A stretch of 37,735 bases of DNA from a virus. Below, in pieces: positions 1 to 37,735 of this stretch (its first letter is position 1; every line of letters begins with the position of its first letter). The stretch covers positions 1 through 37,735 of the IMG/VR virus record IMGVR_UViG_3300003322_001161; one strand, given 5' to 3'. The notes beneath the pieces are model-generated. The model was given only the letters and a program-made list of their open reading frames with translations. It searched no databases and was not told the DNA's origin. The position numbers were made by a program, and so were the translations under genes.

Positions 1-249
1 GATCCGTACCGGGCCCGATCGGGCGGGCATGGTGGAAGGGTCGGCCAGCATTTCGCCGATGCGGTTGGCGACGCGCCCTTCGGCCGGCTTCATCAGCAGG
101 CTGAACCACTGATTGCCCAGCATGTCTGCCATCAGCGTATCGGCGAGGCCTCCCGGCAGCCCCGGCGGCCCCGCCACGCTGCGCAGCAGGTTACGGCCGG
201 TGAGGTATTGGGCCGTGGGCGATCCGGTCACTGCGGCGCTCGTTTGCGC
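1..249. repeat. Terminal redundancy, left copy
   Basis: The first 249 bases match the last 249 bases of the window (37487-37735) in the same orientation, with two mismatches (C at 152 versus T at 37638; G at 164 versus A at 37650). The gene crossing this stretch continues in frame from position 1 to 37486. The repeat therefore marks closure of a circular or circularly permuted genome rather than a true gene end. The two mismatches suggest a mixed population or read error. Confidence 0.93.
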
Positions 250-2235
250 CCAGCGCTCGCTGCCCAGATCCTTTTTCATGTTTTCGATCAGCTTCACATC
301 GTCGGGCGTCAGTACATCACGCGCGCGCGCCGCCTCGGATCCGGTGGCACGGCGCACCAGCTGATCGAGGTCGCGCGTTGCATTCGCAAAACTGTTCGGC
401 GTGAGGCCTTCGGCGCCGTAATTCGTGAGCTCGGGGACGAGTTTCTCTGTGATGTACTGGCCCACGCGCAGCCGATCGATCGGCCGGCTCGCTTTTTCAT
501 ACGCGGCGCGCGCGTGCTCGTAATCGGGTGACAGCCGCTGCATGACGCGATCCATCCGGTCCATCGTGTTGGTGAGGATCCGGGCTTCATTACCGCGCCC
601 CTGCGCCTTTGCCCGTTCGATCATGTCGCCGAGGATCTGCTTGCCGTAATGCATGTTGATCAGCAGCGAGCGCGGGTCGTCACTGAAATTGATCGACGGA
701 TCGCCGCGCAAGGTATGCCCTTCCGCGCGCGCCAGCTGCGCGCCGCGGTTCATCGCTTCCCCAAAAAACGGATTGTTCGGATTGCCGGCTTGATCCTTGC
801 CGGTGAGGCCCTGAATCAGCCGCTCCGTGTCCTTGTTCATCCGGCTGGGATCCAAGCCGGTCGCAAAGGCCTGGTCGTACATTTGCCGCGCCTGGCGTTC
901 ACGATCGGCCACCAGGCGATCGAGCTCACCGGGAGCACCGGTGAGCGGCGCCAGGGCGCCCTGGCGCGCTGCCAGACGGCTGGTTTTCTCCTGGGCCATG
1001 CGGGAGGCGATCTCAGGCGCTGCGGCTTGGCTGGAGCGCTGGAGCTGCGCAATGCCGGGGTCGCGGGTGACCTCAGCGAGCGACAGCGTGGAGCCCGGGA
1101 TGAACTGCTGCGGTGTACCGCTCGCAGCCTGGAGGCTCGCCGGATCCGCGGCGAATCGCTCCAGGGCGTTGAGCGCGATGGTCTCCTGACCGCTACGGGT
1201 GAAGGGATCGACCAGGCCGCGCTTGGCCGCTGGCAGCGCGCGCGCAGCGCCGGTAATGCCACCGCTGAACAACGCACTTTCGGCCGCATTCGACAGGCGC
1301 GACTCGTCGGCCGTCGTGGGCTGCAAGGCGCCGTACAACCCACCGAGCGCCGCCGATCCGATGACCGTGTTGGCGCCGGGCACCAGTGCTGCCGGCGCTG
1401 CGGTGGCGAGATTGCCGAGGGTCAACCCCACCTTGCCGGCGCCGGTCTCCATCAGCGGCTGATCGCGCGCGCGCGCCTCGGCGACGTCTTCATCCGATAC
1501 CAGGCCCAGCACCTGGCCAATCCCGCGGCCGGTATCGGCGAAGGCCTTGCCGGCGGCAGCGCGCAGATTGCGGTTGGTGGCGGCGAACTCCTCGCGTTGC
1601 AGGCGCCCCCGCTCTGCCGCTGGCAGCGCCAGGTATTGGTCCGGCGACAGCTTTTCGAGGTCCGGCACATGCTCCACCGGAGTGTACTCGCCGCCCGGCT
1701 GCGAGCTGCTCCGGAAGGCGTCGGCGATCACATTGCCCGGGGCTGTGCCACGTGGCACAGCCTCGAAATCGTATTTCACCGGGTTACCGGGGCCGAGGGG
1801 CTGCAAGCTTTTTATGGTAGTGCCGGTCGCTCCGCCTGCGCGCTTGATGGACACCGGGATCCGCTCCAGGCCCTGTTCCTGCGCCATGAGCGCACGGTGG
1901 CGGCCGTCCTGGTCGATGACCTTGGCCATGCCATCCTTGTCGACGCGGATGTCCAGCTGGGGGATCGCATCGAGGGCGTCGCCCTTGTTGACGGATTTTT
2001 CCAGCGACTGGGTTTTGCCGGCGTGATCTGGATCCTCCTCGACGCCAGGCGCCAACGCCAGGTATTCCGCCGGCGTCATGTACACCACGTCGTAACCGGT
2101 TTTGCCCTGGTACTTCGATACGGCTTTCGGGTCGAAGGTGATGCGCTCCTGGTAGCGCGTCCAGGGCAGCCCCGATACGATCTCCTTCGGGCCATCGGCC
2201 GGTTTATCCGAATACTTTTCCCACGGTTGCGCCAT
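1..2235 (-). CDS. Large DNA-ejection protein, P22 gp16-like position (C-terminus continues at 37486-37394)
   Basis: This gene starts at ATG 2235, directly after the stop of the gp20-like gene, and runs off the window at base 1. Its last 30 codons and TGA lie at 37486-37394, so the full product is about 775 aa. Virion proteins in this place (after gp7- and gp20-like proteins) are ejected into the host with the DNA in P22-type phages; that role is inferred from order and size. The N-terminal 130 residues carry a ParB-like signature, with DGRHRAL near residue 114 after a strand-rich stretch. The middle is Ala/Gly-rich with a hydrophobic glycine-rich segment (about residues 265-305), and the C-terminal half is charged and helical. 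P22 gp16 is 609 aa, so this one is longer, partly because of the ParB-like region. No lytic transglycosylase motif was seen. Confidence 0.72.
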   Translation of the reverse strand, partial: MAQPWEKYSDKPADGPKEIVSGLPWTRYQERITFDPKAVSKYQGKTGYDVVYMTPAEYLALAPGVEEDPDHAGKTQSLEKSVNKGDALDAIPQLDIRVDKDGMAKVIDQDGRHRALMAQEQGLERIPVSIKRAGGATGTTIKSLQPLGPGNPVKYDFEAVPRGTAPGNVIADAFRSSSQPGGEYTPVEHVPDLEKLSPDQYLALPAAERGRLQREEFAATNRNLRAAAGKAFADTGRGIGQVLGLVSDEDVAEARARDQPLMETGAGKVGLTLGNLATAAPAALVPGANTVIGSAALGGLYGALQPTTADESRLSNAAESALFSGGITGAARALPAAKRGLVDPFTRSGQETIALNALERFAADPASLQAASGTPQQFIPGSTLSLAEVTRDPGIAQLQRSSQAAAPEIASRMAQEKTSRLAARQGALAPLTGAPGELDRLVADRERQARQMYDQAFATGLDPSRMNKDTERLIQGLTGKDQAGNPNNPFFGEAMNRGAQLARAEGHTLRGDPSINFSDDPRSLLINMHYGKQILGDMIERAKAQGRGNEARILTNTMDRMDRVMQRLSPDYEHARAAYEKASRPIDRLRVGQYITEKLVPELTNYGAEGLTPNSFANATRDLDQLVRRATGSEAARARDVLTPDDVKLIENMKKDLGSERWAQTSAAVTGSPTAQYLTGRNLLRSVAGPPGLPGGLADTLMADMLGNQWFSLLMKPAEGRVANRIGEMLADPSTMPARSGPVRI

Positions 2236-3648
2236 TTACTTCACCTTCTCCCAGGACGATTTGCTCGCCGGATTGCCGCCCTTGAAGCGGTACCCGTCGA
2301 TCACATCGCCCGCCTTCGGCGCCGCCGGTTGCTGCGGCTCTTCTTCCCCACCTTCGCCTTCGGCCGCGTCGACCAGGTGTTGCCGCATTTTCCGTTGCAC
2401 GATCCCCGGGGATTTCATCGCCGCATCCATTTCGCGCTGCAATTGTTTGATGACCGCCGCGTATTGCTGCGGCGACTGCGCCACTTCGATCATCTCGCGC
2501 GCGTGCTCTTTATCGGAAACCGTCGGTGTCCCCGAAGGGGATATCGCGCGCGCGTACGCATTGATAAACGAATTGTTCGCGGCTACGAATTGCGCGACCT
2601 CTTCGCTTCCGCGATTCTGATCAAACAGTTGTTGCGCGCGGTTCAGCGGCATAAACGAGCCGCGTTTGAATTTGTTCGAGGCCTCCAGCGCGAGGTCCGC
2701 AAATTGCGAGGCCTCGTTCACCGCCATTTCGATGTTCACGAGTTTTGTCTGACCGGTGCGCTGCCCCGCTTTGAAGCCTTCGAACTCGCCGATCGCCGCT
2801 GCAATTTCCGCGGGTTTCATGCCGAGGTTTTCCGCTTCCTCGTAAATCATGTTGTTGAGTGCGGTGAGGTTTGCACCGCCTTGCGCGCCGCGGCCGAGGT
2901 TTTGTTTAACGGTGCGATCGCCGGCGAGATATTGCCGCGCCATCGCACGCAGATTTTTTTCCGGAATCGACGGCTCGACGTCGACGCCTTCCATGCGTTT
3001 CTCTCGAAGGCGCGCGGTTTCCTCCATCGCCTGGTTGTGCCGCTTGGTTTCCGCCATCGTCTGCGTGTCCTTGTACGACAGGACATCCGCCCGGAAGCGG
3101 TCAGGATCGAATTGCGGGTTTTCCGGATCGGGTAGATCACCGAGCACACCCGATTTTTTCACTTCGCCGATGCGCTGGTTCAGGTGTTGCTGCGCGAGTT
3201 GCGACGCCCGTTCCGGCGAAATACCGCGGCCGAGCGCGCTGTCGTAAACACCCAGCGCACTGCCCTTCAAATCGTTGGTGATTTCGAGCGCCTTCTCGCG
3301 CAGTGCCTGTTTGTTTTTTTCCTCGGTGGTTTTCGCGCTGCGCAGATCCGCGGCGATGCGTTCTTGCTGGAGCGCCTGTTGCCGATAGGCCATCGCCGTA
3401 TCGGGCGCGAGCTGGGCAATTTGCCCCAGTGCGACCGTCGTGGGGCTGCCGGTGGTCGGATCTATCGCGCCAGGTTGTGACAGCAACTGACGGACGCCCT
3501 GCTGCTGCTGCGCCGCGTACTGCTGCTGTTGCAACGCCAGCTGGTGCAACTGCGCCTGGGTGGCGATGTCCTTGAGCTGTACCATCTGCGCCGGCGTCAT
3601 GAACTCCGGCGGTTTGACGGCCAGCGGGATCTGCGGGTTGAGCGCCAT
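2236..3648 (-). CDS. DNA-ejection protein, P22 gp20-like position
   Basis: This 470-aa protein is almost the size of P22 gp20 (471 aa) and sits between gp7-like and gp16-like genes, the P22 order. The N-terminus is very Gln-rich (runs of QQQQ near residues 38-50), followed by long predicted helices rich in Ala, Lys and Glu, and an acidic, Pro-rich tail (GGEEEPQQPAAPK). This composition is typical of internal virion proteins ejected ahead of the genome. The start is ATG 3648, with GGAGG upstream. The stop abuts the next ATG at 2235, suggesting translational coupling. The function rests on synteny, size and composition, not on a conserved motif. Confidence 0.72.
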   Translation of the reverse strand: MALNPQIPLAVKPPEFMTPAQMVQLKDIATQAQLHQLALQQQQYAAQQQQGVRQLLSQPGAIDPTTGSPTTVALGQIAQLAPDTAMAYRQQALQQERIAADLRSAKTTEEKNKQALREKALEITNDLKGSALGVYDSALGRGISPERASQLAQQHLNQRIGEVKKSGVLGDLPDPENPQFDPDRFRADVLSYKDTQTMAETKRHNQAMEETARLREKRMEGVDVEPSIPEKNLRAMARQYLAGDRTVKQNLGRGAQGGANLTALNNMIYEEAENLGMKPAEIAAAIGEFEGFKAGQRTGQTKLVNIEMAVNEASQFADLALEASNKFKRGSFMPLNRAQQLFDQNRGSEEVAQFVAANNSFINAYARAISPSGTPTVSDKEHAREMIEVAQSPQQYAAVIKQLQREMDAAMKSPGIVQRKMRQHLVDAAEGEGGEEEPQQPAAPKAGDVIDGYRFKGGNPASKSSWEKVK

Positions 3649-3658
3649 CGGCAGCCTC

Positions 3659-4354
3659 CTATTTCGTCGGTACCGCGCCTTGGTTCATATAGCGCGACAG
3701 CAGCTTTTGCCCCTGGTAGTTATTCCACGCATCGCCGAGGCCCTGACCAAACGCATTGAACATGCCCACGGTGCCAGCAGCCTGTGCGTTGCCCTGATCG
3801 AGGAGGTTGGCATTGATCTGCGCCGCCGTGTTCTGGCCGACGCCGGCGAGCGAACTGGCTGCGCCCAGGCCCTGCCCCGTCAAACCGGTCAGCATGTTGT
3901 AACGGCGGCTCTGATCGCCCACAAAGCGGTTATACGCATTGGTGAATTCGTCCGAGGCGATGCCCTGGCTGAACTGCGTCAGGTCTTTGAGTGTGCCCCC
4001 GGAAAAGGCCCCGCCCAGCGCCGAGTGCTGGTTCTTGATCTCGTCTTGACCCTGCTGGAGGCGGAACGCATACCCCGGATCTGCCGTGAAATCGGCCATG
4101 GTGAACTGCCGGGCGCCGGGCGCGTTCGGGTTGACCGCGCCGCCCTCCCCGATACCGAGGAACGCGCGCAGCGCGCTGAGGGCATCGGTGCCCCCGCTGA
4201 TGAACGGCTGGAGCAAGTCCTTGTTCGTGTCGTACATCTGCCATTGCAGGGCGTTCGCCTTGTCGGCGGACCGTGACTGCTGGCCGGCCGCTTTCTTCGA
4301 TCCATATGCGCCAATAGCGGCCGATCCGATTGCTGCTGCTGCTCCCCAAGGCAT
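3659..4354 (-). CDS. DNA-ejection/injection protein, P22 gp7-like
   Basis: The 231-aa product compares with 229 aa for P22 gp7. It opens with an Ala/Gly/Ser-rich hydrophobic segment (MPWGAAAAIGSAAIGAYGS) that could insert in a membrane, then a Gln-rich helical region and a Gly-rich C-terminal half (LTGQGLGAASSLAG, FNAFGQGLGDAWNNYQG). This pattern is common to phage DNA-transfer proteins encoded upstream of the two larger ejection proteins. The ATG at 4354 lies two bases beyond the stop of the cupin gene. It probably travels in the virion and helps conduct DNA across the cell envelope. Confidence 0.75.
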   Translation of the reverse strand: MPWGAAAAIGSAAIGAYGSKKAAGQQSRSADKANALQWQMYDTNKDLLQPFISGGTDALSALRAFLGIGEGGAVNPNAPGARQFTMADFTADPGYAFRLQQGQDEIKNQHSALGGAFSGGTLKDLTQFSQGIASDEFTNAYNRFVGDQSRRYNMLTGLTGQGLGAASSLAGVGQNTAAQINANLLDQGNAQAAGTVGMFNAFGQGLGDAWNNYQGQKLLSRYMNQGAVPTK

Positions 4355-4358
4355 GGTT

Positions 4359-4778
4359 TTACACCTTCTGTAAAAGGCTCACATTCAGCTGATGTTCGCC
4401 GGTGATCTCGACCGCGCCACGGCCCTGTACGTTGTGGATGCAGTACAGGACGGTGTCCGGCTCCAACGACATAAACGTGTGTTTCTCGCCCGCGGGAATC
4501 AGGATCGCTGTCGGCGCCTGGTAGTCGCCGAGCCACTTGGTATCGCGCCAGACGCGAACGGATCCGCGCGCCAGCATGCTGTGGTGGCTGTACCGATGCT
4601 GATGCTGCGGCACGAACGTGAAAGCCACCTGCAGGTGCATTTGCTTGATGAAAACACCGTCGGTGCAGACGAATTCCCAGTGATCGATGGCGACCGGTTC
4701 CAGGCCGATACCGGACGCCTGCAACCAGTCCTTGCGCCGCTCTACTGGGTTTTTATCCAGGTCCTCGGCTTCGTTCAT
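4359..4778 (-). CDS. Cupin-like protein, possible metal-binding partner of the adjacent hydroxylase
   Basis: This 139-aa protein shows a cupin-like pattern. A His-rich first motif (VPQHQHRYSHH, residues 57-66) is followed by SMLARGSVRVW. A second motif, PAGEKHTF (residues 95-102), sits in a strand-turn-strand context. Together they could form a metal site. The start was taken at ATG 4778, which overlaps the hydroxylase stop as ATGA; a GTG nine bases upstream (4787) is less likely. Its substrate is unknown. Tight coupling to a 2-oxoglutarate-type hydroxylase and to ejection genes suggests both proteins act on the same target, possibly a virion or cell-surface component. Similar small cupins occur in phages without an assigned role. 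Confidence 0.6.
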   Translation of the reverse strand: MNEAEDLDKNPVERRKDWLQASGIGLEPVAIDHWEFVCTDGVFIKQMHLQVAFTFVPQHQHRYSHHSMLARGSVRVWRDTKWLGDYQAPTAILIPAGEKHTFMSLEPDTVLYCIHNVQGRGAVEITGEHQLNVSLLQKV

Positions 4779-5338
4779 GCTTCGCACCTCAGGCAGATGA
4801 TTAGGGTGATCCGGTCATCCTGGCCGTTGTTCACCACCTCATGTTCCTTCGTGTTGTCGAAGGTCCAGACCTCCCCCGCTTTCATCGCCACGAACTCGTC
4901 TTCCGTGCGGTTCACGCACTGCGGGTTTGACTGCAAAATGCAGTACAACTTGCAGTTGTAGTACTCAACGTGCCACCCCCGATCCGTGTGCGCATCGATG
5001 CGGCCGCCCGGCGGGATCCGCGTCAGCAGCACACCCCCGAGCCGTGTCGCCTCGCAGCGCGCCATGAGCCCGAACACGATCGGCCGCAGCGCCGGCAGCG
5101 CGCGCCAGGCCGGGTAAAAGATCGGATCGTGCGCGTCGTTGAACCGCGAGTAGTCGCCCGTCTCCTTGAACCGCTCCTCATCGTTATAGCGCACCCAGAT
5201 ATCCTGCATGTCACCGTGAGGCGAACCCGGCGCCGCCCGCCGGGCGCTATGGGCATCCCACAGCGCCGGCTGACGGTGCAGCTGGGCCAGCAGCGGCACC
5301 ACGTCCACCCCGTCCGCAATCTTGAGAAAGTACTTCAC
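4775..5338 (-). CDS. Aspartyl/asparaginyl beta-hydroxylase-like Fe(II)/2-oxoglutarate dioxygenase
   Basis: The 187-aa protein matches the Asp/Asn (Asp/Arg) beta-hydroxylase family by pattern. Residues 105-121 give the TRIPPGGRIDAHTDRG strand-turn with H117 and D119. Residues 154-170 give GEVWTFDNTKEHEVVNN with H166, and R176 follows as the probable 2-oxoglutarate contact. H117-x-D119...H166 would form a complete iron-binding triad. Family members hydroxylate Asp or Asn side chains using O2 and 2-oxoglutarate. The start is GTG 5338, overlapping the upstream TGA; the next start with the expected frame is far downstream. It sits between tail-fibre and ejection genes, so a virion or host-envelope protein is a plausible target, but this is inference. 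Confidence 0.82.
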   Translation of the reverse strand: MKYFLKIADGVDVVPLLAQLHRQPALWDAHSARRAAPGSPHGDMQDIWVRYNDEERFKETGDYSRFNDAHDPIFYPAWRALPALRPIVFGLMARCEATRLGGVLLTRIPPGGRIDAHTDRGWHVEYYNCKLYCILQSNPQCVNRTEDEFVAMKAGEVWTFDNTKEHEVVNNGQDDRITLIICLRCEA

Positions 5339-12154: not shown

Positions 12155-12598
12155 TCAGGCCTTCGGCTTACGCTTCGACGTGGCATCAGCGGCGGGCGTT
12201 TCGTCCGGCGTCTCTGCATCGCCCTCGTTATTCAGCCGATCGGCGATCGCCTGCAGAGCCTGTTCGGTACCGTCCGCAAAATTCTCGTAATCGGTGCGCA
12301 ACTGCTCCACCTGGCTAACCAGGTCCTGGAGGCCGTGCTCCAATCTCTGCAAGGTTTCGGTGATTTCCGTCGGCACGGTCGCCGACGACGCCTGCGGGGT
12401 GCCATGCGCGGACGACAGCAGTTCCTGGGCCCGCTTCTCCACGATTTCGATGGCATTTACTACGCCGCCGATTTTCTGGTTTGCCGCTTCAGCAAAGGCC
12501 ACCAGCGAATCCCATACATGGCCGTGTTCGGCGCTGCCAACCTTGAAGCGGCCCACCAGATTTTTGAGAGCATTGAGTTGATCGGTCAAAACAGTCAT
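12155..12598 (-). CDS. Coiled-coil small protein of unknown function
   Basis: This 147-aa protein is largely helical. Heptad-like stretches cover about residues 1-50 and 80-125 (ETLQRLEHGLQDLVSQVEQL, then QALQAIADRLNNEG). A low-complexity acidic/basic tail ends ATSKRKPKA. The start ATG 12598 overlaps the glycosyltransferase stop (TAATG). It lies between glycosyltransferase and gp4-like genes. I do not recognise the family; an assembly chaperone or virion-associated coiled coil would fit the position. Confidence 0.55.
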   Translation of the reverse strand: MTVLTDQLNALKNLVGRFKVGSAEHGHVWDSLVAFAEAANQKIGGVVNAIEIVEKRAQELLSSAHGTPQASSATVPTEITETLQRLEHGLQDLVSQVEQLRTDYENFADGTEQALQAIADRLNNEGDAETPDETPAADATSKRKPKA

Positions 12599-13323
12599 TA
12601 CGCAGTCTCCTGTTCAAGGGCGCCGGCGACGTCGCCGGCGGTGGGCGCAGTATACAAATCGCCTCCCGGCTGGCGCCGCAGGAACTGGTGGTAATTACCC
12701 GGGTACACCTGGTCGCCGGCGTGGTGCGCGATGTCCAGGTTCGGCACAACCCACAGATCACCGCCGCACTCACGCCAGCGTTTACAGAACGCGTAGTCCT
12801 CCCCGTACCAGGTGCCATCGATCGCGCCATGGTTGAACAGATCCACGGCCGGCCGATACGGGACGCCGTACACCAGGTGCGGATAGGCGCGCATGAAACG
12901 CCCGATCGCTGCGCTGGTGACTTTGAGGAAACCCGCCGGCACTTTTTCAGCAGCGATCGCTCCGTCACTTCGCACGCGCGGATACCCTTCGGCGTCCGTC
13001 TGCAGGACGCCCATGTACTCCTCGGGTTCCTTTTTGAACCGGTACAGGCCTGCGACGACGTCGCCCTGGGTTTCGAGCAAGCGCAGCAGATCCTCAGGCC
13101 GCCAGGACAGGTCGTAGTCCAGATAGACGATGACGTCCGCCTCGGCGTCCAGGGCCTTGCGGGTCATCGTGGCGCGCGCGGCCGAGATGTACGGGCAGCC
13201 AAGCTCCTGCACATAGGCTTCCTGCCAGCCAGCGGCGACGATCAACGGAATGGAGGCCTCCAGCGCCGCGATATAGGGGGCGGTGGGGCCGGCGAGGGAG
13301 GGCGTACAGAAAACGACTTTCAT
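12598..13323 (-). CDS. GT-A fold glycosyltransferase
   Basis: The 241-aa protein has a nucleotide-sugar transferase layout. An N-terminal Rossmann-like strand (MKVVFCTPSLAG) is followed by a DVIVYLDYDLSW strand with a D-x-D type metal motif (YLDYD, about residues 71-75). A C-terminal GEDYAFCKRWRECGG segment (about 173-187) is typical of the catalytic acid region, followed by WVVPNLDIAHHAG. Such enzymes transfer a sugar from an NDP donor. It lies between the coat/head-fibre genes and the tail genes, so glycosylation of a virion protein or host surface is plausible. It could instead modify DNA, but no hydroxymethylated-base pathway is visible. The start is ATG 13323; transcription may be reduced by the terminator just upstream. 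Confidence 0.75.
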   Translation of the reverse strand: MKVVFCTPSLAGPTAPYIAALEASIPLIVAAGWQEAYVQELGCPYISAARATMTRKALDAEADVIVYLDYDLSWRPEDLLRLLETQGDVVAGLYRFKKEPEEYMGVLQTDAEGYPRVRSDGAIAAEKVPAGFLKVTSAAIGRFMRAYPHLVYGVPYRPAVDLFNHGAIDGTWYGEDYAFCKRWRECGGDLWVVPNLDIAHHAGDQVYPGNYHQFLRRQPGGDLYTAPTAGDVAGALEQETA

Positions 13324-27752: not shown

Positions 27753-27956
27753 TTAGCGTTGGGTTTTTTTCAGGATTTTTCCGGCGTAAGCCGCTACCGC
27801 AATGACAGATATCCCGCCGATCTCCGTGCGATGGGTCAAAAAAACCTCCTTCGGAATGTCATGGTATTTATGTTCAGTAACCACCAATTGAATATCCGCT
27901 CGAATATCGGCGCCCTGGATGGCGTAACCCCGATCAAAAATTTCCTTGCTAGTCAT
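27753..27956 (-). CDS. Small unrecognised protein
   Basis: This 67-aa protein has a helix (TSKEIFDRGYAIQGADIRAD) and a C-terminal hydrophobic stretch (EIGGISVIAVAAYAGKIL) that could be a membrane helix or a buried strand-helix. ATG 27956 overlaps the J-domain stop as ATGA and was preferred to ATG 27965. Confidence 0.55.
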   Translation of the reverse strand: MTSKEIFDRGYAIQGADIRADIQLVVTEHKYHDIPKEVFLTHRTEIGGISVIAVAAYAGKILKKTQR

Positions 27957-28519
27957 CCCTTCCACGCTCGGTAGTTATCCCACGCTTCGCAGACTCGCTG
28001 AAAGGCATCGGGGTCACCTCCGTGATCGGGGTGGTGTTTTTTTCTCGCGCGCTGATAGGCCAGCAGCACCTCCGTGTCCGGCGCGTCCGGATCGCATCCC
28101 AGCACTTCGTGCCAGGGTTCATTGGGCGGCGGTAATTGTTTAAATCCCTGGAAGGACGCCTGCACCAGGTGCAGCGACCCATGCCGCAACTCGACGCGCC
28201 GCGCCTCGATAATGTGGTGGATCGCTTGCAGGTTATCCTCCACGCGCAAATACCGATCCACCGGTATGCAGCACGTCAGATTATTCCAGGTAAACCACAC
28301 CGCGACTCCCGGATCTGAAGGCTTATCCATACCGAGACTTACATTGCTGCTGATCGCAATCAGATAAAGTTTTTGTCCGGAGTCCGCGGCTAAGCGGTGT
28401 AGGCTATCTTTCACATTTCGCAATGCACCCGGCAGCGTCGTCTTGAATAAACTTTTTTCCCGTTTGGTCGCGCGTGGGAATCCAGGCGGCCAGTGCAATG
28501 GATACCCTTGAACACTCAT
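27953..28519 (-). CDS. J-domain protein (DnaJ-like co-chaperone) with phage-type N-terminal domain
   Basis: The 188-aa protein ends in a J-domain (about residues 136-188) with the HPD motif at 163-165 (RARKKHHPDHGG), so it can stimulate a DnaK-type ATPase. The domain is C-terminal rather than N-terminal as in DnaJ. The N-terminal 130 residues (GYPLHWPPGFPRA..., later DPGVAVWFTWNN and VDRYLRVEDNLQAI) match a domain I know from many phages of Pseudomonas and relatives, where it is annotated only as a J-domain protein. ATG 28519 overlaps the AraC-type stop as ATGA. Together with the adjacent GroES-like gene it forms an early chaperone set. Confidence 0.8.
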   Translation of the reverse strand: MSVQGYPLHWPPGFPRATKREKSLFKTTLPGALRNVKDSLHRLAADSGQKLYLIAISSNVSLGMDKPSDPGVAVWFTWNNLTCCIPVDRYLRVEDNLQAIHHIIEARRVELRHGSLHLVQASFQGFKQLPPPNEPWHEVLGCDPDAPDTEVLLAYQRARKKHHPDHGGDPDAFQRVCEAWDNYRAWKG

Positions 28520-28971
28520 AGGCGCCGATCCTTTCTCGCGAAACGAAACGATTGACCCGTTTGATGCCGCCACCAGCGGTACAACGCAGGTACACTGTTC
28601 AATCCGCTCACAATGGCAATATGCTTCGGGGGCAATCCCTGTTCCACCAGTGGCTCTATAATCGCCATGCGCTGCTCGTCGACAATCTGCTGATAACTGG
28701 TGCCACACGCTGCCATGTAACGCCGTAATGTCGGTGCCGATATGCGCAGTCGGATGGCCACGTCCTCCTGGGTGATCTTTTCACCTTCGGCCAGCGCCTG
28801 GATCACCAGCAACCGCACGGACTCTCTAAAGTACAGCAAGGCAGTCTGACTGTAGCGATCACCCAACTGATCGTGATGCTGCGCCTGCTGCTCCACAAAC
28901 CAGACAATCGCATTCGTAATCCACTGCGTCTGGCGCTGGGGAGTCAACGCCAGAAAATCAGTTTTCTTCAT
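28516..28971 (-). CDS. AraC-type transcription regulator
   Basis: The 151-aa protein carries an AraC-like double helix-turn-helix: TQEDVAIRLRISAPTLRRYM (about residues 70-89) and KHIAIVSGLNSVPALYRWWR (about 118-137) followed by TGQSFRFARKD. There is no separate ligand domain, only a helical N-terminus. Lone DNA-binding modules of this sort could switch early or late transcription or redirect host genes. The GGTCAC repeats at 24135-24160, next to a promoter lacking a -35 box, are one possible target. ATG 28971 overlaps the GroES-like gene by 14 bases. Confidence 0.75.
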   Translation of the reverse strand: MKKTDFLALTPQRQTQWITNAIVWFVEQQAQHHDQLGDRYSQTALLYFRESVRLLVIQALAEGEKITQEDVAIRLRISAPTLRRYMAACGTSYQQIVDEQRMAIIEPLVEQGLPPKHIAIVSGLNSVPALYRWWRHQTGQSFRFARKDRRL

Positions 28972-29281
28972 AGTCGACCACCGCGGCGATGTGCATTTCA
29001 TGCATCGCGAGCACGTCGCGTTCTGTCGGGTTTTGCTCGAAGCGGTCCGCCGCCGGGTAGATCGGCTGGCCCGTGCGCTCCAAAAAGAAAACCGTGTCTT
29101 TTTCCTTGACCAGTTTCACAGCGGGCCCGACGCGCAATACAACCCCGGTCTGAAGATTTTCCATCGGTACTTGCAGCACCAGGCCCCACGGCGTAGTCAC
29201 CTGCCGGATCCGGTGCACCAGCACCAGGTCGCCGAGCGGGCGAACATTCACAGGTAAATAAAAATTCGGGTAAACCTTCAC
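28958..29281 (-). CDS. GroES-like co-chaperonin
   Basis: The 107-aa protein follows the Cpn10 pattern: VNVRPLGDLVLVHRI near the N-terminus, then TPWGLVLQVP, LQTGVVLRVGPAV, and the C-terminal MHEMHIAAVVDYEEN. The GroES mobile-loop position (between TPWG and LQVP) is shortened. Phage co-chaperonins (T4 gp31 type) replace GroES to fold the capsid. Here the coat is P22-like, and P22 coat needs GroEL/ES. The start is GTG 29281, overlapping the previous TGA. Confidence is high for the fold, moderate for a capsid-folding role. Confidence 0.75.
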   Translation of the reverse strand: MKVYPNFYLPVNVRPLGDLVLVHRIRQVTTPWGLVLQVPMENLQTGVVLRVGPAVKLVKEKDTVFFLERTGQPIYPAADRFEQNPTERDVLAMHEMHIAAVVDYEEN

Positions 29282-29568
29282 GTTTGACTCTCCGCTGCTG
29301 GGAGCTCCCACAAAATGTGGCAGCCAAGATAGGGTTTTAGGCTGATGGCGAACTGACGCGGTGACCCATTGCTGTCGACCGTAACCACCTGGTGTGGTGC
29401 CGCCTTGCCGTACTCCATAAACGGCCGGTCAATCACAAGCCGAGCATCGCCACAGCGCACGCGCACCTGCTGCACCTGATAACCGTGCGCGCTCAATCGC
29501 AACGCCGCGAGAAAGGCGCTGTTCATAGCCACCATCACCGCCGAATTTTCCTTGTACGTGCAATTCAT
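29278..29568 (-). CDS. Unrecognised early protein
   Basis: This 96-aa protein from ATG 29568 has helix then strands: NSAFLAALRLSAHGYQVQQV, RVRCGDARLVIDRPF, SPRQFAISLKPYLGC. It looks like a small alpha/beta fold. Its stop overlaps the GroES-like GTG. No family recognised. Confidence 0.58.
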   Translation of the reverse strand: MNCTYKENSAVMVAMNSAFLAALRLSAHGYQVQQVRVRCGDARLVIDRPFMEYGKAAPHQVVTVDSNGSPRQFAISLKPYLGCHILWELPAAESQT

Positions 29569-33884: not shown

Positions 33885-34910
33885 TTACCCCTGTGGCAAT
33901 AAGGCCATCGAAACGGCATTGCTGTAGTCGCCGGCGTCCGGGATCTGGGATCCGGTATAGCCCGGCGGCGGATAGACCCAATAGGTATCGAGCCACAGGG
34001 CGACGGTGGGATCGTTCACCCAGCACAAATGGCTGCCGAGGCCTGCGTCGTCGAACTCGGTCGAGGCGTCCAGTGACCAGGTGCCCGTCGCGCCACCGCT
34101 GGTGTCGTACACCATGGCGTAGGGCGACGTCGTGCCAGTGCGCAGCGCCAGGAGCGTACCGGCCGCATTCCACTGCGCGGCCCACGCGATGGCGCTCGGC
34201 AATGGAGATGGGTTCGCTTCCTTCGTGAACGTGATGCCGTCAGTGGTGTACACCGAAATGAACGGGCTGTTGAAATGCCCGATCACCAGCTGATTCGAAT
34301 CCGGACTCCAGGCGCAGCCCGAGGCGTTGCCGGTGGGCAATGTTCCGGGGTTACTCAACTTCGTCCAATTCGACACGGTGTAGATCGTGACAAAGGGCGT
34401 CGTGTTGTGCGCGATCGCCGCCCAATTGCCGTTGGGCGAGAACGCGCAGGTGACCGCGGCGCCGGTAGGCGTGACCGCCGGATTGCTGCGCTTGGTCCAG
34501 TCGGCCGTGTTGTAGATCGCGATATACGGCGAGCTCTGCAGGGCGCAGAGCAGGTACGCCCCGTCGGGCGAAAAGGCCATGCTGTTCACCTGGCTGCCGG
34601 CATTCGGCACGGTGATGCCGGCATTGTCCCAGGTGGAGGCGTCCAGGAACGTGATGAACGGGTTCGACTGCTGGCTGACCGCAATCAGGGATCCGTCCGG
34701 GCTGCAGGCAATGCAGGTCGGCGCGTCGTTGATGCCCTGGTCCTCGCCGGCGCTGTGCAAGAGCTCACCGGTGGCACTGTCGAAGCCCAGCACCCAACCG
34801 GGCGTATCGGATCCCTGCGCCACCACCATCATCGGGCCCGGCGCGCCACCGGCGACGATGGCCAGATGCCCGGTCAATGCCAGGCTGCCGCTGAAGGCCA
34901 GAGTGCTCAT
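33885..34910 (-). CDS. WD40-like beta-propeller virion protein
   Basis: The 341-aa protein holds about five propeller repeats of roughly 42 residues, each with a variant of CAFSPNGNWAAIAHNTTPFV then TIYxxxxW. Examples are SMAFSPDGAYLLCALQSSPY and GCAWSPDSNQLVIGHFNSPF. A low-Lys N-terminus and a Pro/Tyr-rich C-terminus (WVYPPPGYTGSQ) flank them. It is coupled to the second tail fibre by ATGA, so it is probably a virion or tail component that binds a ligand. The repeat number suggests an incomplete or open ring, or assembly with another chain. Confidence 0.72.
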   Translation of the reverse strand: MSTLAFSGSLALTGHLAIVAGGAPGPMMVVAQGSDTPGWVLGFDSATGELLHSAGEDQGINDAPTCIACSPDGSLIAVSQQSNPFITFLDASTWDNAGITVPNAGSQVNSMAFSPDGAYLLCALQSSPYIAIYNTADWTKRSNPAVTPTGAAVTCAFSPNGNWAAIAHNTTPFVTIYTVSNWTKLSNPGTLPTGNASGCAWSPDSNQLVIGHFNSPFISVYTTDGITFTKEANPSPLPSAIAWAAQWNAAGTLLALRTGTTSPYAMVYDTSGGATGTWSLDASTEFDDAGLGSHLCWVNDPTVALWLDTYWVYPPPGYTGSQIPDAGDYSNAVSMALLPQG

Positions 34911-35974
34911 GCGCGCAACCCCAGGCAGCGCCAGTGCAGCGTGATGTCCTCGGTCAGCGGGAAATCCTCATACCAGGTAATAACCGCTTGGGTGGTCGAC
35001 AGCGAGGTCAGGAAGGCGCTGGGGACCCCACCGAAACCGGTCGTTTGCAAAGCGAACAGGAAATTGAAGACGCCGCCCTCGAACGGTTGCGGAAAGGTGA
35101 TCGTGGTGGTGTTGCCCGGCGCAATGTCACCCTGATGCACGCGGCCCCACTGGTCCATGAGGTTACCGCCCAGGATCACGTAGCCGTCCGTGTCGAAGGA
35201 TCCGCTGCCCGCGCCGGTCTGGAACGACAGGTTGCCGGCGCCATCGGTGGTCAGTACCGCATTGGCTGCGCCATCGGCGGTCGGCCAGCTGAAGCCGGCC
35301 AGCGACAGCGGCAGGCCCGCAGACTGCAAGCTCAGCGTACCGCCCGACGTGGAGAACGACATATTGCTGTCGCCCGTGAACGTGCTGATACCCGTTACTG
35401 CGACGGACAAACCGTTTCCGGCTTCGAGGGTAAAAGCCTGCCCAGATGTCAGCGTCAGCGTGCTGTCGCTACTGATGGTGAACGGATCGGGGGTGGTGAT
35501 ACTGGCGGTCGTTTGCGCAATGGGATCGATGGTCACCACCGGCGTGCCCGTCACCCCGTCCACAACCGGCGCGATCTGAAATAAACCGTCGCCGACGCCG
35601 TACGCCAGGCTCACGCCGTTCGCATCGTTATCGATCAGTTCGATCTGCGGCAGGCTCGCGTCGCGAATGACCAGCGGGTTGCCGTTGTCGTTGATGTCGT
35701 CGACCGTCCAGATCGGATCCGTGGGTGGATCCGTGTCCGTCGGCGGCGCGAACACGAATTTGTAACTCAACAGCGGGTTGAGCCAGATGGAGGCCTCGCC
35801 GCGGTCATCCAAAACGATCGGGTTGGTGTTCGCCGTGTTGCCGGTGAAATCCGTATAAGTCGGCGTCTTGGTCGACGAGTCGGCAAGGTACGTGAACAAC
35901 TGGTAGCCCACCGCCGGCGCGCCATCGTTGTCGAAAAATTGCGGCCGCGCCAGCGGCGCCAGAATCGTGCTCAT
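34907..35974 (-). CDS. Second tail fibre or fibre tip
   Basis: The 355-aa protein starts with a domain common at the N-termini of short tail fibres (ARPQFFDNDGAPAVGYQLFT, then LDDRGEASIWLNP). The middle is beta-rich and Thr/Ser-rich. The C-terminal 95 residues have GGNLMDQWGRVHQGD and TTTITFPQPFEGGVFN, like the gp53-type fibre C-terminal domain. It probably attaches to the tail hub or the large fibre. ATG 35974 overlaps the ATP-grasp stop (ATGA). Confidence 0.8.
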   Translation of the reverse strand: MSTILAPLARPQFFDNDGAPAVGYQLFTYLADSSTKTPTYTDFTGNTANTNPIVLDDRGEASIWLNPLLSYKFVFAPPTDTDPPTDPIWTVDDINDNGNPLVIRDASLPQIELIDNDANGVSLAYGVGDGLFQIAPVVDGVTGTPVVTIDPIAQTTASITTPDPFTISSDSTLTLTSGQAFTLEAGNGLSVAVTGISTFTGDSNMSFSTSGGTLSLQSAGLPLSLAGFSWPTADGAANAVLTTDGAGNLSFQTGAGSGSFDTDGYVILGGNLMDQWGRVHQGDIAPGNTTTITFPQPFEGGVFNFLFALQTTGFGGVPSAFLTSLSTTQAVITWYEDFPLTEDITLHWRCLGLRA

Positions 35975-37311
35975 GAGGTCACCCCGTAATCCATATTTTT
36001 GGCGTAGCCGAGGCGGTGCAGCTCCGGCAATTCTTTCGCCAGGCGCTCGCCGATATCGTCGCGCACCATCAGGTTCGGTACGTGGATTCGATCCACGGCC
36101 GCGTAGGCTTTTTCTGCCGCAGCACGCACGGTTTTGCCCAGTCCCGTGACGCAGGCGATGTACTCGCGCGTGGTCACATTGGTGGGCTGTTCGACCAGTT
36201 TTCCGTCGACCATCACCGGCGCTTTTTGCCAGCGAATGCCGACGCGGTGCACCTGGTCTTCGACGTCCTCGATGCCGTACACCGGCACCCCCTGGGTCGC
36301 CGGCGGCGCGTCATCGGAATACGGGTACTGCGGCTGCGTCAGTACAACTCCGATGGCCACGTCATAGGACGGTTTGAGCGTGTCGTGGCCGTCGAGCAAG
36401 TCGCGCATCCACTGCGCGGGGTCGCCTTTGTGGCTGGCGGTTTGGATCCACCAGGCCGGCCAGCCGGCGCGGCAGGTAAATTCCAACGGCCACGGTCTGC
36501 CTTTGCGATCGATCATCACATTGACGTCGACGTCACCGATATGACGGCGCCGCCGCAGTTCCTCGGCGACGGGTTCCAGCACCGCCTGCGCGAGCGCGCT
36601 GTCGCGCACGTATTGCAATACCGATCCCTGCTCGCCGGTGTTGGGCCCGTAATTGCCCGACATCAGTTTCTTGAACTCGAAATTTTCATTCCAGGCATTC
36701 GGCAGAAATCCGTCCGGCCCCATCCAGCCGGATACCCCCATCTCAATACCGTCGATTTTTTCCTGGAGAATGCAGGGGCCTTTCAATTTCATGCCGAGCC
36801 GCTGCCAGTGTTGCAGGCGCGCCACCAGGTCAGCCGGATCCGCGGCGACATACGACAGCGATTTATCTTCCTCATCGCCGAGGGTTTTAAACACGTAGCC
36901 GACCGATTGTTTGCGCGCGAACTGCTCGGCCTCTTTCAGCGTGGCGAACTGCTGGTAACGCGGCACATCGATGCCGGCTTTGACAAAGGCCTGCATGCCG
37001 ACGCCGCGTTTTATTTCGAGTTCCGCGCTGCGCACCGACGGGCCGAACACGGGGAAGCCCATTTTTCGCCAGTTATCGAGTTCACGCGTATACCGCGTGT
37101 TAAACAGATTCACCACCAGGCCTTTCTTCGCCCATTGCATCGAGGGAATCCAGTCCTCGACCTTCTCGAACTGCTCGAAACCCAGGCCGTCGGTCGGGTA
37201 TTCGCCGCGCTTGTTCTTCGGCTGAAACCAGCGCACGGCATGCCCGGCGGCACCGCAACGATAGGCAAAATCTAGTCCGCAGCCGTCTGGATCGATGATT
37301 AGGATATTCAA
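35971..37311 (-). CDS. PurD-like ATP-grasp enzyme
   Basis: The 446-aa protein has the ATP-grasp layout of phosphoribosylamine-glycine ligase: Rossmann-like start (LNILIIDPDGCGLDFAYRCG), FGPSVRSAELEIKRGVGMQA (about residues 89-108), lysine strand YVFKTLGDEE, ILQEKIDGIEMGVSGW, and GPNTGEQGS (222-230). A magnesium-binding strand, PLEFTCRAGWPAWW (E277), follows. PurD is about 430 aa, so length agrees. The start TTG 37311 has GAGGGG eight bases upstream; GTG 37353 is an alternative. No other purine genes are near, so it may ligate an amine to a different substrate. It lies between ejection and fibre genes. Confidence 0.85.
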   Translation of the reverse strand: MNILIIDPDGCGLDFAYRCGAAGHAVRWFQPKNKRGEYPTDGLGFEQFEKVEDWIPSMQWAKKGLVVNLFNTRYTRELDNWRKMGFPVFGPSVRSAELEIKRGVGMQAFVKAGIDVPRYQQFATLKEAEQFARKQSVGYVFKTLGDEEDKSLSYVAADPADLVARLQHWQRLGMKLKGPCILQEKIDGIEMGVSGWMGPDGFLPNAWNENFEFKKLMSGNYGPNTGEQGSVLQYVRDSALAQAVLEPVAEELRRRRHIGDVDVNVMIDRKGRPWPLEFTCRAGWPAWWIQTASHKGDPAQWMRDLLDGHDTLKPSYDVAIGVVLTQPQYPYSDDAPPATQGVPVYGIEDVEDQVHRVGIRWQKAPVMVDGKLVEQPTNVTTREYIACVTGLGKTVRAAAEKAYAAVDRIHVPNLMVRDDIGERLAKELPELHRLGYAKNMDYGVTS

Positions 37312-37371
37312 GGTGTTGCACCCCTCGCGGACGAGAGTGCGCGCGCGTAGCACACAATCGTCCAGTTGTCA

Positions 37372-37393: not shown

Positions 37394-37735
37394 TCATTGG
37401 TTGGAGGCGCCGTACAGACCGCCGGCGACTGCCGCCGGCGGCAGCGCCACATCGCTGATTCGCGACAACGGCACCTGCGTGAACGGGATCCGTACCGGGC
37501 CCGATCGGGCGGGCATGGTGGAAGGGTCGGCCAGCATTTCGCCGATGCGGTTGGCGACGCGCCCTTCGGCCGGCTTCATCAGCAGGCTGAACCACTGATT
37601 GCCCAGCATGTCTGCCATCAGCGTATCGGCGAGGCCTTCCGGCAGCCCCAGCGGCCCCGCCACGCTGCGCAGCAGGTTACGGCCGGTGAGGTATTGGGCC
37701 GTGGGCGATCCGGTCACTGCGGCGCTCGTTTGCGC
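37394..37735 (-). CDS. Right-hand part of the gp16-like ejection protein (same gene as 1-2235)
   Basis: The frame is open at the window edge and ends at TGA 37394 with the residues VALPPAAVAGGLYGASNQ. Bases 37487-37735 duplicate 1-249 of the window and encode the same residues except two differences (LPEG here versus PPGG in the left copy). Only 37394-37486 adds new sequence: 30 codons plus the stop. Confidence 0.85.
   Translation of the reverse strand, partial: AQTSAAVTGSPTAQYLTGRNLLRSVAGPLGLPEGLADTLMADMLGNQWFSLLMKPAEGRVANRIGEMLADPSTMPARSGPVRIPFTQVPLSRISDVALPPAAVAGGLYGASNQ
37487..37735. repeat. Terminal redundancy, right copy
   Basis: This is the right-hand copy of the 249-base repeat at 1-249, with two mismatches. 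The first bases (GATCC) complete a GGATCC site at the join (37486-37491). Confidence 0.93.

Follow-up and report, generated by a model that had tools for sequence, protein, structure and literature searches.

The gene at positions 35971–37311 of this phage genome encodes a protein that keeps the fold and the ATP site of PurD, has lost PurD substrate-binding residues and lies between the DNA-ejection genes and a tail-fibre gene, a combination which suggests that it probably makes a non-purine product during virion production. Our working hypothesis, held with middling confidence, is that the protein is an active PurD-derived ATP-grasp amide ligase with a switched substrate, that it is read late in infection, and that it most likely serves the ejection or tail apparatus. 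PurD itself forms glycyl phosphate and then passes the glycyl group to phosphoribosylamine. The phage ligase would similarly activate a carboxylate, perhaps that of an amino acid, as an acyl phosphate, as PurD does glycine, and would pass the acyl group to an amine other than phosphoribosylamine. Its gene, which occupies a fixed site with the gene-16-like ejection protein on one side and the tail fibre on the other, would be expressed along with the late virion genes, and the enzyme would modify the ejection or tail apparatus, or make a small conjugate used there; that the target is a component of the virion is our guess.

Gene and genome

The window (the whole stretch of 37,735 bp analysed) ends in a 249-bp repeat of 99% identity, from which we deduce a circular map of about 37,486 bp. 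On this map the large ejection gene, split between the two ends of the window (37394–37735 joined to 1–2235), lies directly upstream of the PurD-like gene. The phage is P22-like by its Pfam matches (P22_CoatProtein, 1.6e-45; P22_portal, 1.3e-172), and the order on the minus strand is portal, coat, GT2-like protein, neck and tail genes, hydroxylase, cupin, the ejection proteins EJ1, EJ2 and EJ3, PurD-like protein, fibre, beta-propeller protein and endolysin. The features discussed below are as follows.

35971–37311, minus strand: PurD-like ATP-grasp ligase, 446 aa, TTG start
37394–37735, minus strand: C-terminal end of EJ3, the large ejection protein, joined to 1–2235 over the circular map
1–2235, minus strand: N-terminal part of EJ3, in the position of P22 gene 16 (family comparison)
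2236–3648, minus strand: EJ2, second ejection protein (family comparison)
3659–4354, minus strand: EJ1, DNA-ejection protein (phrog_598, 'DNA ejection', 2e-36)
4359–4787, minus strand: cupin-like protein (Cupin_2, E 0.005, below the gathering score), in the same slot as the hydroxylase
4775–5338, minus strand: 2OG-Fe(II) Asp/Asn- or proline-hydroxylase-like protein (Asp_Arg_Hydrox, 1.8e-13), in a variable slot before EJ1
12598–13323, minus strand: GT2-like protein of the head module (phrog_1574, of unknown function, 5.7e-15; Glycos_transf_2, E 0.03, below the gathering score)
34907–35974, minus strand: tail fibre, family FIB (Gp53-like_C, 4e-5, slightly below the gathering score)

The open frame of the PurD-like gene runs on the minus strand from a GTG at 37353 to 35971. 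This GTG lies in frame upstream of the TTG at 37311, which is favoured as the start by the family alignment and by a GAGGGG sequence resembling a ribosome-binding site; on the plus strand 35971–37311 holds a shadow frame only. The stop of the gene shares 4 bp with the start of the tail-fibre gene. The predicted protein consists of the N, A and C domains of the GARS fold followed by a family-specific C-terminal tail, and it matches GARS_A (8e-8) and GARS_C (5e-9), both above the gathering score, as well as solved PurD structures (2.8e-23), so that its resemblance to PurD is far beyond chance. These matches confirm the PurD-like ATP-grasp frame proposed in the sequence-only reading and place it on the minus strand. 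The same reading had stated that no other nucleotide-biosynthesis gene is nearby, and indeed no partner in purine or nucleotide synthesis was found by Pfam among the window proteins scanned, a set that lacked some small ORFs.

Several other genes of the window were noted in passing. A WD40-like beta-propeller protein (33885–34910; phrog_19311, 5e-27) adjoins the tail fibre, and this small phage also encodes a Cpn10/GroES-like protein (28958–29311, 3e-4) and a DnaJ-like domain (27953–28708, 3e-6); a Cpn10-like gene is annotated in MW202796 too. The N-terminal part of EJ3 (1–2235) contains a DGRHR stretch that looks ParB/sulfiredoxin-like by eye and has no Pfam match, and the EJ3 of one relative carries Phage_lysozyme2.

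Fold and active site

The AlphaFold model of the protein (pLDDT 95.1, pTM 0.93) has the three-domain GARS fold that characterizes PurD, in agreement with the GARS_A and GARS_C matches: in structure comparison its 13 best PDB entries were all PurD (Z 31.2–35.1). PurK, PurT, biotin carboxylase and PylC followed at Z about 22–23. These enzymes, and the L-amino acid ligases (seen by Foldseek only), share the ATP-grasp fold with the phage protein but are structurally further from it than PurD and have no match to the GARS C domain. The phage ATP-grasp amidoligase clusters described by Iyer et al. in 2009 are said to represent another ATP-grasp branch, with partner amidotransferases; such clusters, named in papers on Pa11virus and PhiM6, also bring an ATP-grasp enzyme into podoviruses and, on that description, would differ from the present family.

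Residues were mapped by aligning 54 relatives with Aquifex PurD and eight true PurD sequences. Roles follow PMC8880213, in which (A. aeolicus numbering) E100, K103, K143, E192 and K214 are assigned to ATP/Mg, and Asp212, Arg287 and Glu292 to glycine. In all 54 relatives E99, R102, K142, K150, E190, K214, E277 and R281 are invariant. Their counterparts in PurD are E100, K103 (conservatively replaced by R), K143, E192 and K214 of the ATP/Mg site and the glycine contact R287. The invariant residues include the lysines (K142, K214) and glutamates (E190, E277) expected of an ATP-grasp enzyme, and the core of the ATP site is intact, most ATP-site residues being invariant. The changes at the ATP/Mg site (K103 to R, E185 to Q and EFN to EFT) leave altered or weak catalysis possible. 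The last two could even be taken as signs of a catalytically dead scaffold or assembly factor, an explanation that we find scarcely credible given a core of Lys, Glu and Arg invariant in 54/54 sequences at a mean column identity of 55%. Nine of 11 close pairs gave a dN/dS of 0.02–0.15, and the remaining two had a saturated dS; the low ratios point to purifying selection on the gene.

The substrate residues give a different picture. Of the glycine contacts, Arg287 is kept and Asp212 is changed to Glu, each in 54/54, and Glu292 is replaced by A, T, L, I and others; G227 is changed to E in 54/54 and D290 to W or Y. The R-E-H of the N-terminal GGREH motif, which we take to be the phosphoribosylamine site, is present in 8/8 PurD and is lost, like Glu292, in essentially all 54 relatives, where V/C, G and L are the main residues of these columns. 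Compared with PurD structures (PDB 2YW2, 1GSO, 2QK4, 2XCL), therefore, the phage protein has in common the N-A-C fold, the ATP lysines, the glutamate that binds Mg and the acyl-contacting Arg, and differs in the loss of GGREH and E292, in D212 to E, in GGMG becoming GE(M/Q)G and RFGDPE becoming R-x-G-(W/Y)-P-x, in an extra conserved C-terminal tail and in its location in a phage virion operon. That the Arg is retained and the ammonium contacts have changed suggests that an acyl phosphate is formed from a carboxylate other than glycine, and the loss of GGREH suggests a different amine; the invariant R281 does not in itself prove an amino-acid acyl substrate. Residues newly invariant in the phage family (G44, W60, N71 and E227) mark a family-specific site.

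We considered whether the gene is simply a phage purD that, as an auxiliary metabolic gene, raises host purine synthesis, because the protein has the full PurD fold, GARS_C is matched in 54/54 and GARS_A in 47/54 members, and papers on snow and vent viruses name purD as a phage gene (PMC11097641, PMC12043954), although those genes may or may not belong to the present family. Against this, the score to NCBIfam purD (TIGR00877) is 84.7 bits, short of the equivalog cut-off of 288, and the glycine and phosphoribosylamine residues are lost. Moreover, in a tree of 64 sequences, including the 54 phage proteins and eight true PurD (two of them phage-borne), the 54 phage proteins formed one clade (98/99) and true PurD, the two phage-borne sequences included, formed a separate clade (100/100). 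By score, substrate residues and tree, the phage protein appears not to be a GAR synthetase, and, with no purine gene found nearby among the Pfam-scanned proteins, we rejected an ordinary purD as hardly tenable. The sequence-only reading had likewise taken the protein to be PurD-like yet non-purine, and its substrate pocket, aligned over 54 relatives and eight true PurD, bears this out, the glycine and phosphoribosylamine residues being not all intact (two of three glycine contacts changed or lost).

Position and accessory enzymes

We surveyed 51 dereplicated loci with at least 1 kb of upstream sequence, using a codon-usage gene caller; many of the contigs are fragments. Of these, 46/51 have an ejection-family gene upstream on the same strand, and 31/51 have a fibre gene of the window's family no more than 3 kb downstream, so that the proposed place of the gene, between ejection proteins and tail fibre, is not only correct for the window but conserved. 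The PurD-like gene often overlaps its neighbours by a few bases; this synteny, and the overlaps with late genes, suggest that the protein is made during assembly. About sixteen loci have, next to the PurD-like gene and mostly on its immediate upstream side, a small protein of about 110–135 aa with a HELvE motif and EPGD...APY and without a Pfam or PHROG match, whose gene often overlaps the start of the PurD-like gene by 4 bp (for example L004:9400-9741, L005:9645-10004 and L007:9621-10004, and others).

In seven phage contigs that carry the same module without the ligase, the fibre gene follows EJ3 directly, with a gap of 0–167 bp. This near-empty junction identifies the ligase gene as accessory, with a single fixed site that one clade occupies, and from the existence of related phages without it no essential virion role follows. 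A search for module-bearing phages with a single ejection-protein query found no relatives; the ejection and fibre alignments were too variable for profile scanning. The gene-16/tailspike junction of P22 and its relatives carries accessory genes as well, and the place beside the ejection genes may reflect a permissive insertion site. The main rival to a virion target is accordingly a moron with another role, such as host takeover, phage exclusion or small-molecule metabolism, linked to the virion by nothing more than the shared site, and we give it a real if minor chance of being correct. Insertion at a fixed site speaks for this explanation. Morons usually turn over, however, whereas here one clade holds the site across wide divergence (42–56% identity to the window protein for most members), on the same strand and often with overlaps of a few bases.

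A further explanation is that the enzyme is itself carried in the virion, is ejected together with the DNA and works in the cell that has just been infected. Other phages are known to eject effector enzymes (PMC5512222), and the gene directly follows the ejection genes in most loci, but the protein has no packaging signal and its model is compact and fully folded, without a helical region of the ejection type; we consider this explanation unlikely. Returning to the substrate-switched ligase, the more specific proposal that such enzymes covalently modify an ejection or tail protein, or make a small conjugate that is packaged with the DNA, is put forward tentatively.

It had also been proposed that the ligase, the hydroxylase, the cupin and the glycosyltransferase form one dispersed modification pathway. 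The accessory enzymes do exist in the window, as hydroxylase, cupin-like and GT2-like proteins, although the Pfam matches of the last two are below the gathering score. Co-occurrence was counted over whole contigs, in the other contigs of at least 31 kb found via the PurD-like gene, with near-identical ones merged into 23 clusters; two contigs fetched via the hydroxylase (L098 and L099) were excluded, as they would have biased the counts. The hydroxylase was present in 8, the glycosyltransferase in 5, the cupin in 4 and all four genes in 1 of these clusters (L057, the same as G438), and among 20 contigs fetched via the glycosyltransferase none had the ligase and none the hydroxylase. The four genes thus fail as a unit. 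Their joint presence in the window and in that one contig, and the recurrence of the hydroxylase with the ligase (8/23 against 0/20), speak for a common pathway, but most ligase-bearing genomes lack one or more partners, glycosyltransferase contigs lack the ligase, and other enzymes take the place of the hydroxylase in the slot before EJ1, which makes such a pathway very improbable. This slot is visible in 21 loci: 9 have a hydroxylase there, 9 a sulfotransferase-like P-loop protein, 3 a cupin and 2 a GNAT protein, as if small modifying enzymes rotated through it; that the ligase is constant across these loci reflects no more than their selection through it. The hydroxylase has an intact H-x-D...H...R motif and is by sequence a 2OG-Fe(II) enzyme, and the best matches of its model (pLDDT 85) are free L-proline hydroxylases and AspH, which fits either a protein or a small-molecule substrate. 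The sulfotransferase-like proteins carry the sequence GLPRSRTAWF (L002:2948-3523, L003:4591-5115, L005:1282-1863).

Distribution and significance

In an alignment scan at least 576 viral contigs encoded a relative, the 80 retained of which are 42–56% identical to the window protein, and only three genome contigs did so, all from metagenome-assembled genomes. The annotated phage collection holds one member, MW202796, in which the locus is unannotated. No PHROG covering the family was found, none of the BFVD viral models has the full fold (best TM about 0.4), and no description of the family was found in the literature searched; the family is widespread and apparently undescribed.

Two rare cellular orphans, WP_123078225 from Halarchaeum (annotated 'phosphoribosylglycinamide synthetase C domain-containing protein') and WP_207415351 from Roseomonas (annotated hypothetical), have FEHK, TGEMGT, EFTxR and the C-terminal tail in common with the phage family, lack GREH, and group with the phage clade away from true PurD, although their exact place in the tree is unsure because of long branches. 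They differ in being stand-alone cellular genes, 27–33% identical. A query with the Roseomonas protein, run without a positive control, matched 0/398 Pseudomonadota genomes at E <= 1e-30, and one with a phage protein matched 1/398, an already-known genome. Cellular orphan PurD-like genes with the altered signature were seen at L095:8989-10305, L096:9001-10275 and L097:8600-9900, the last being a Sphingomonas copy that appears to be broken by a frameshift.

Environmental phage contigs with the PurD-like gene number in the hundreds, and an annotator relying on its Pfam matches could easily call it purD, a purine auxiliary gene; since the residues of the family differ from those of PurD, some published viral purD calls may need review. 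The gene also pinpoints a fixed place of insertion next to the DNA-ejection genes, and it makes it possible to ask directly whether the ejection or tail proteins of podoviruses undergo enzymatic modification. If such a modification, or a conjugate packaged with the DNA, proves to be real, it would be a maturation step as yet undescribed in podoviruses.
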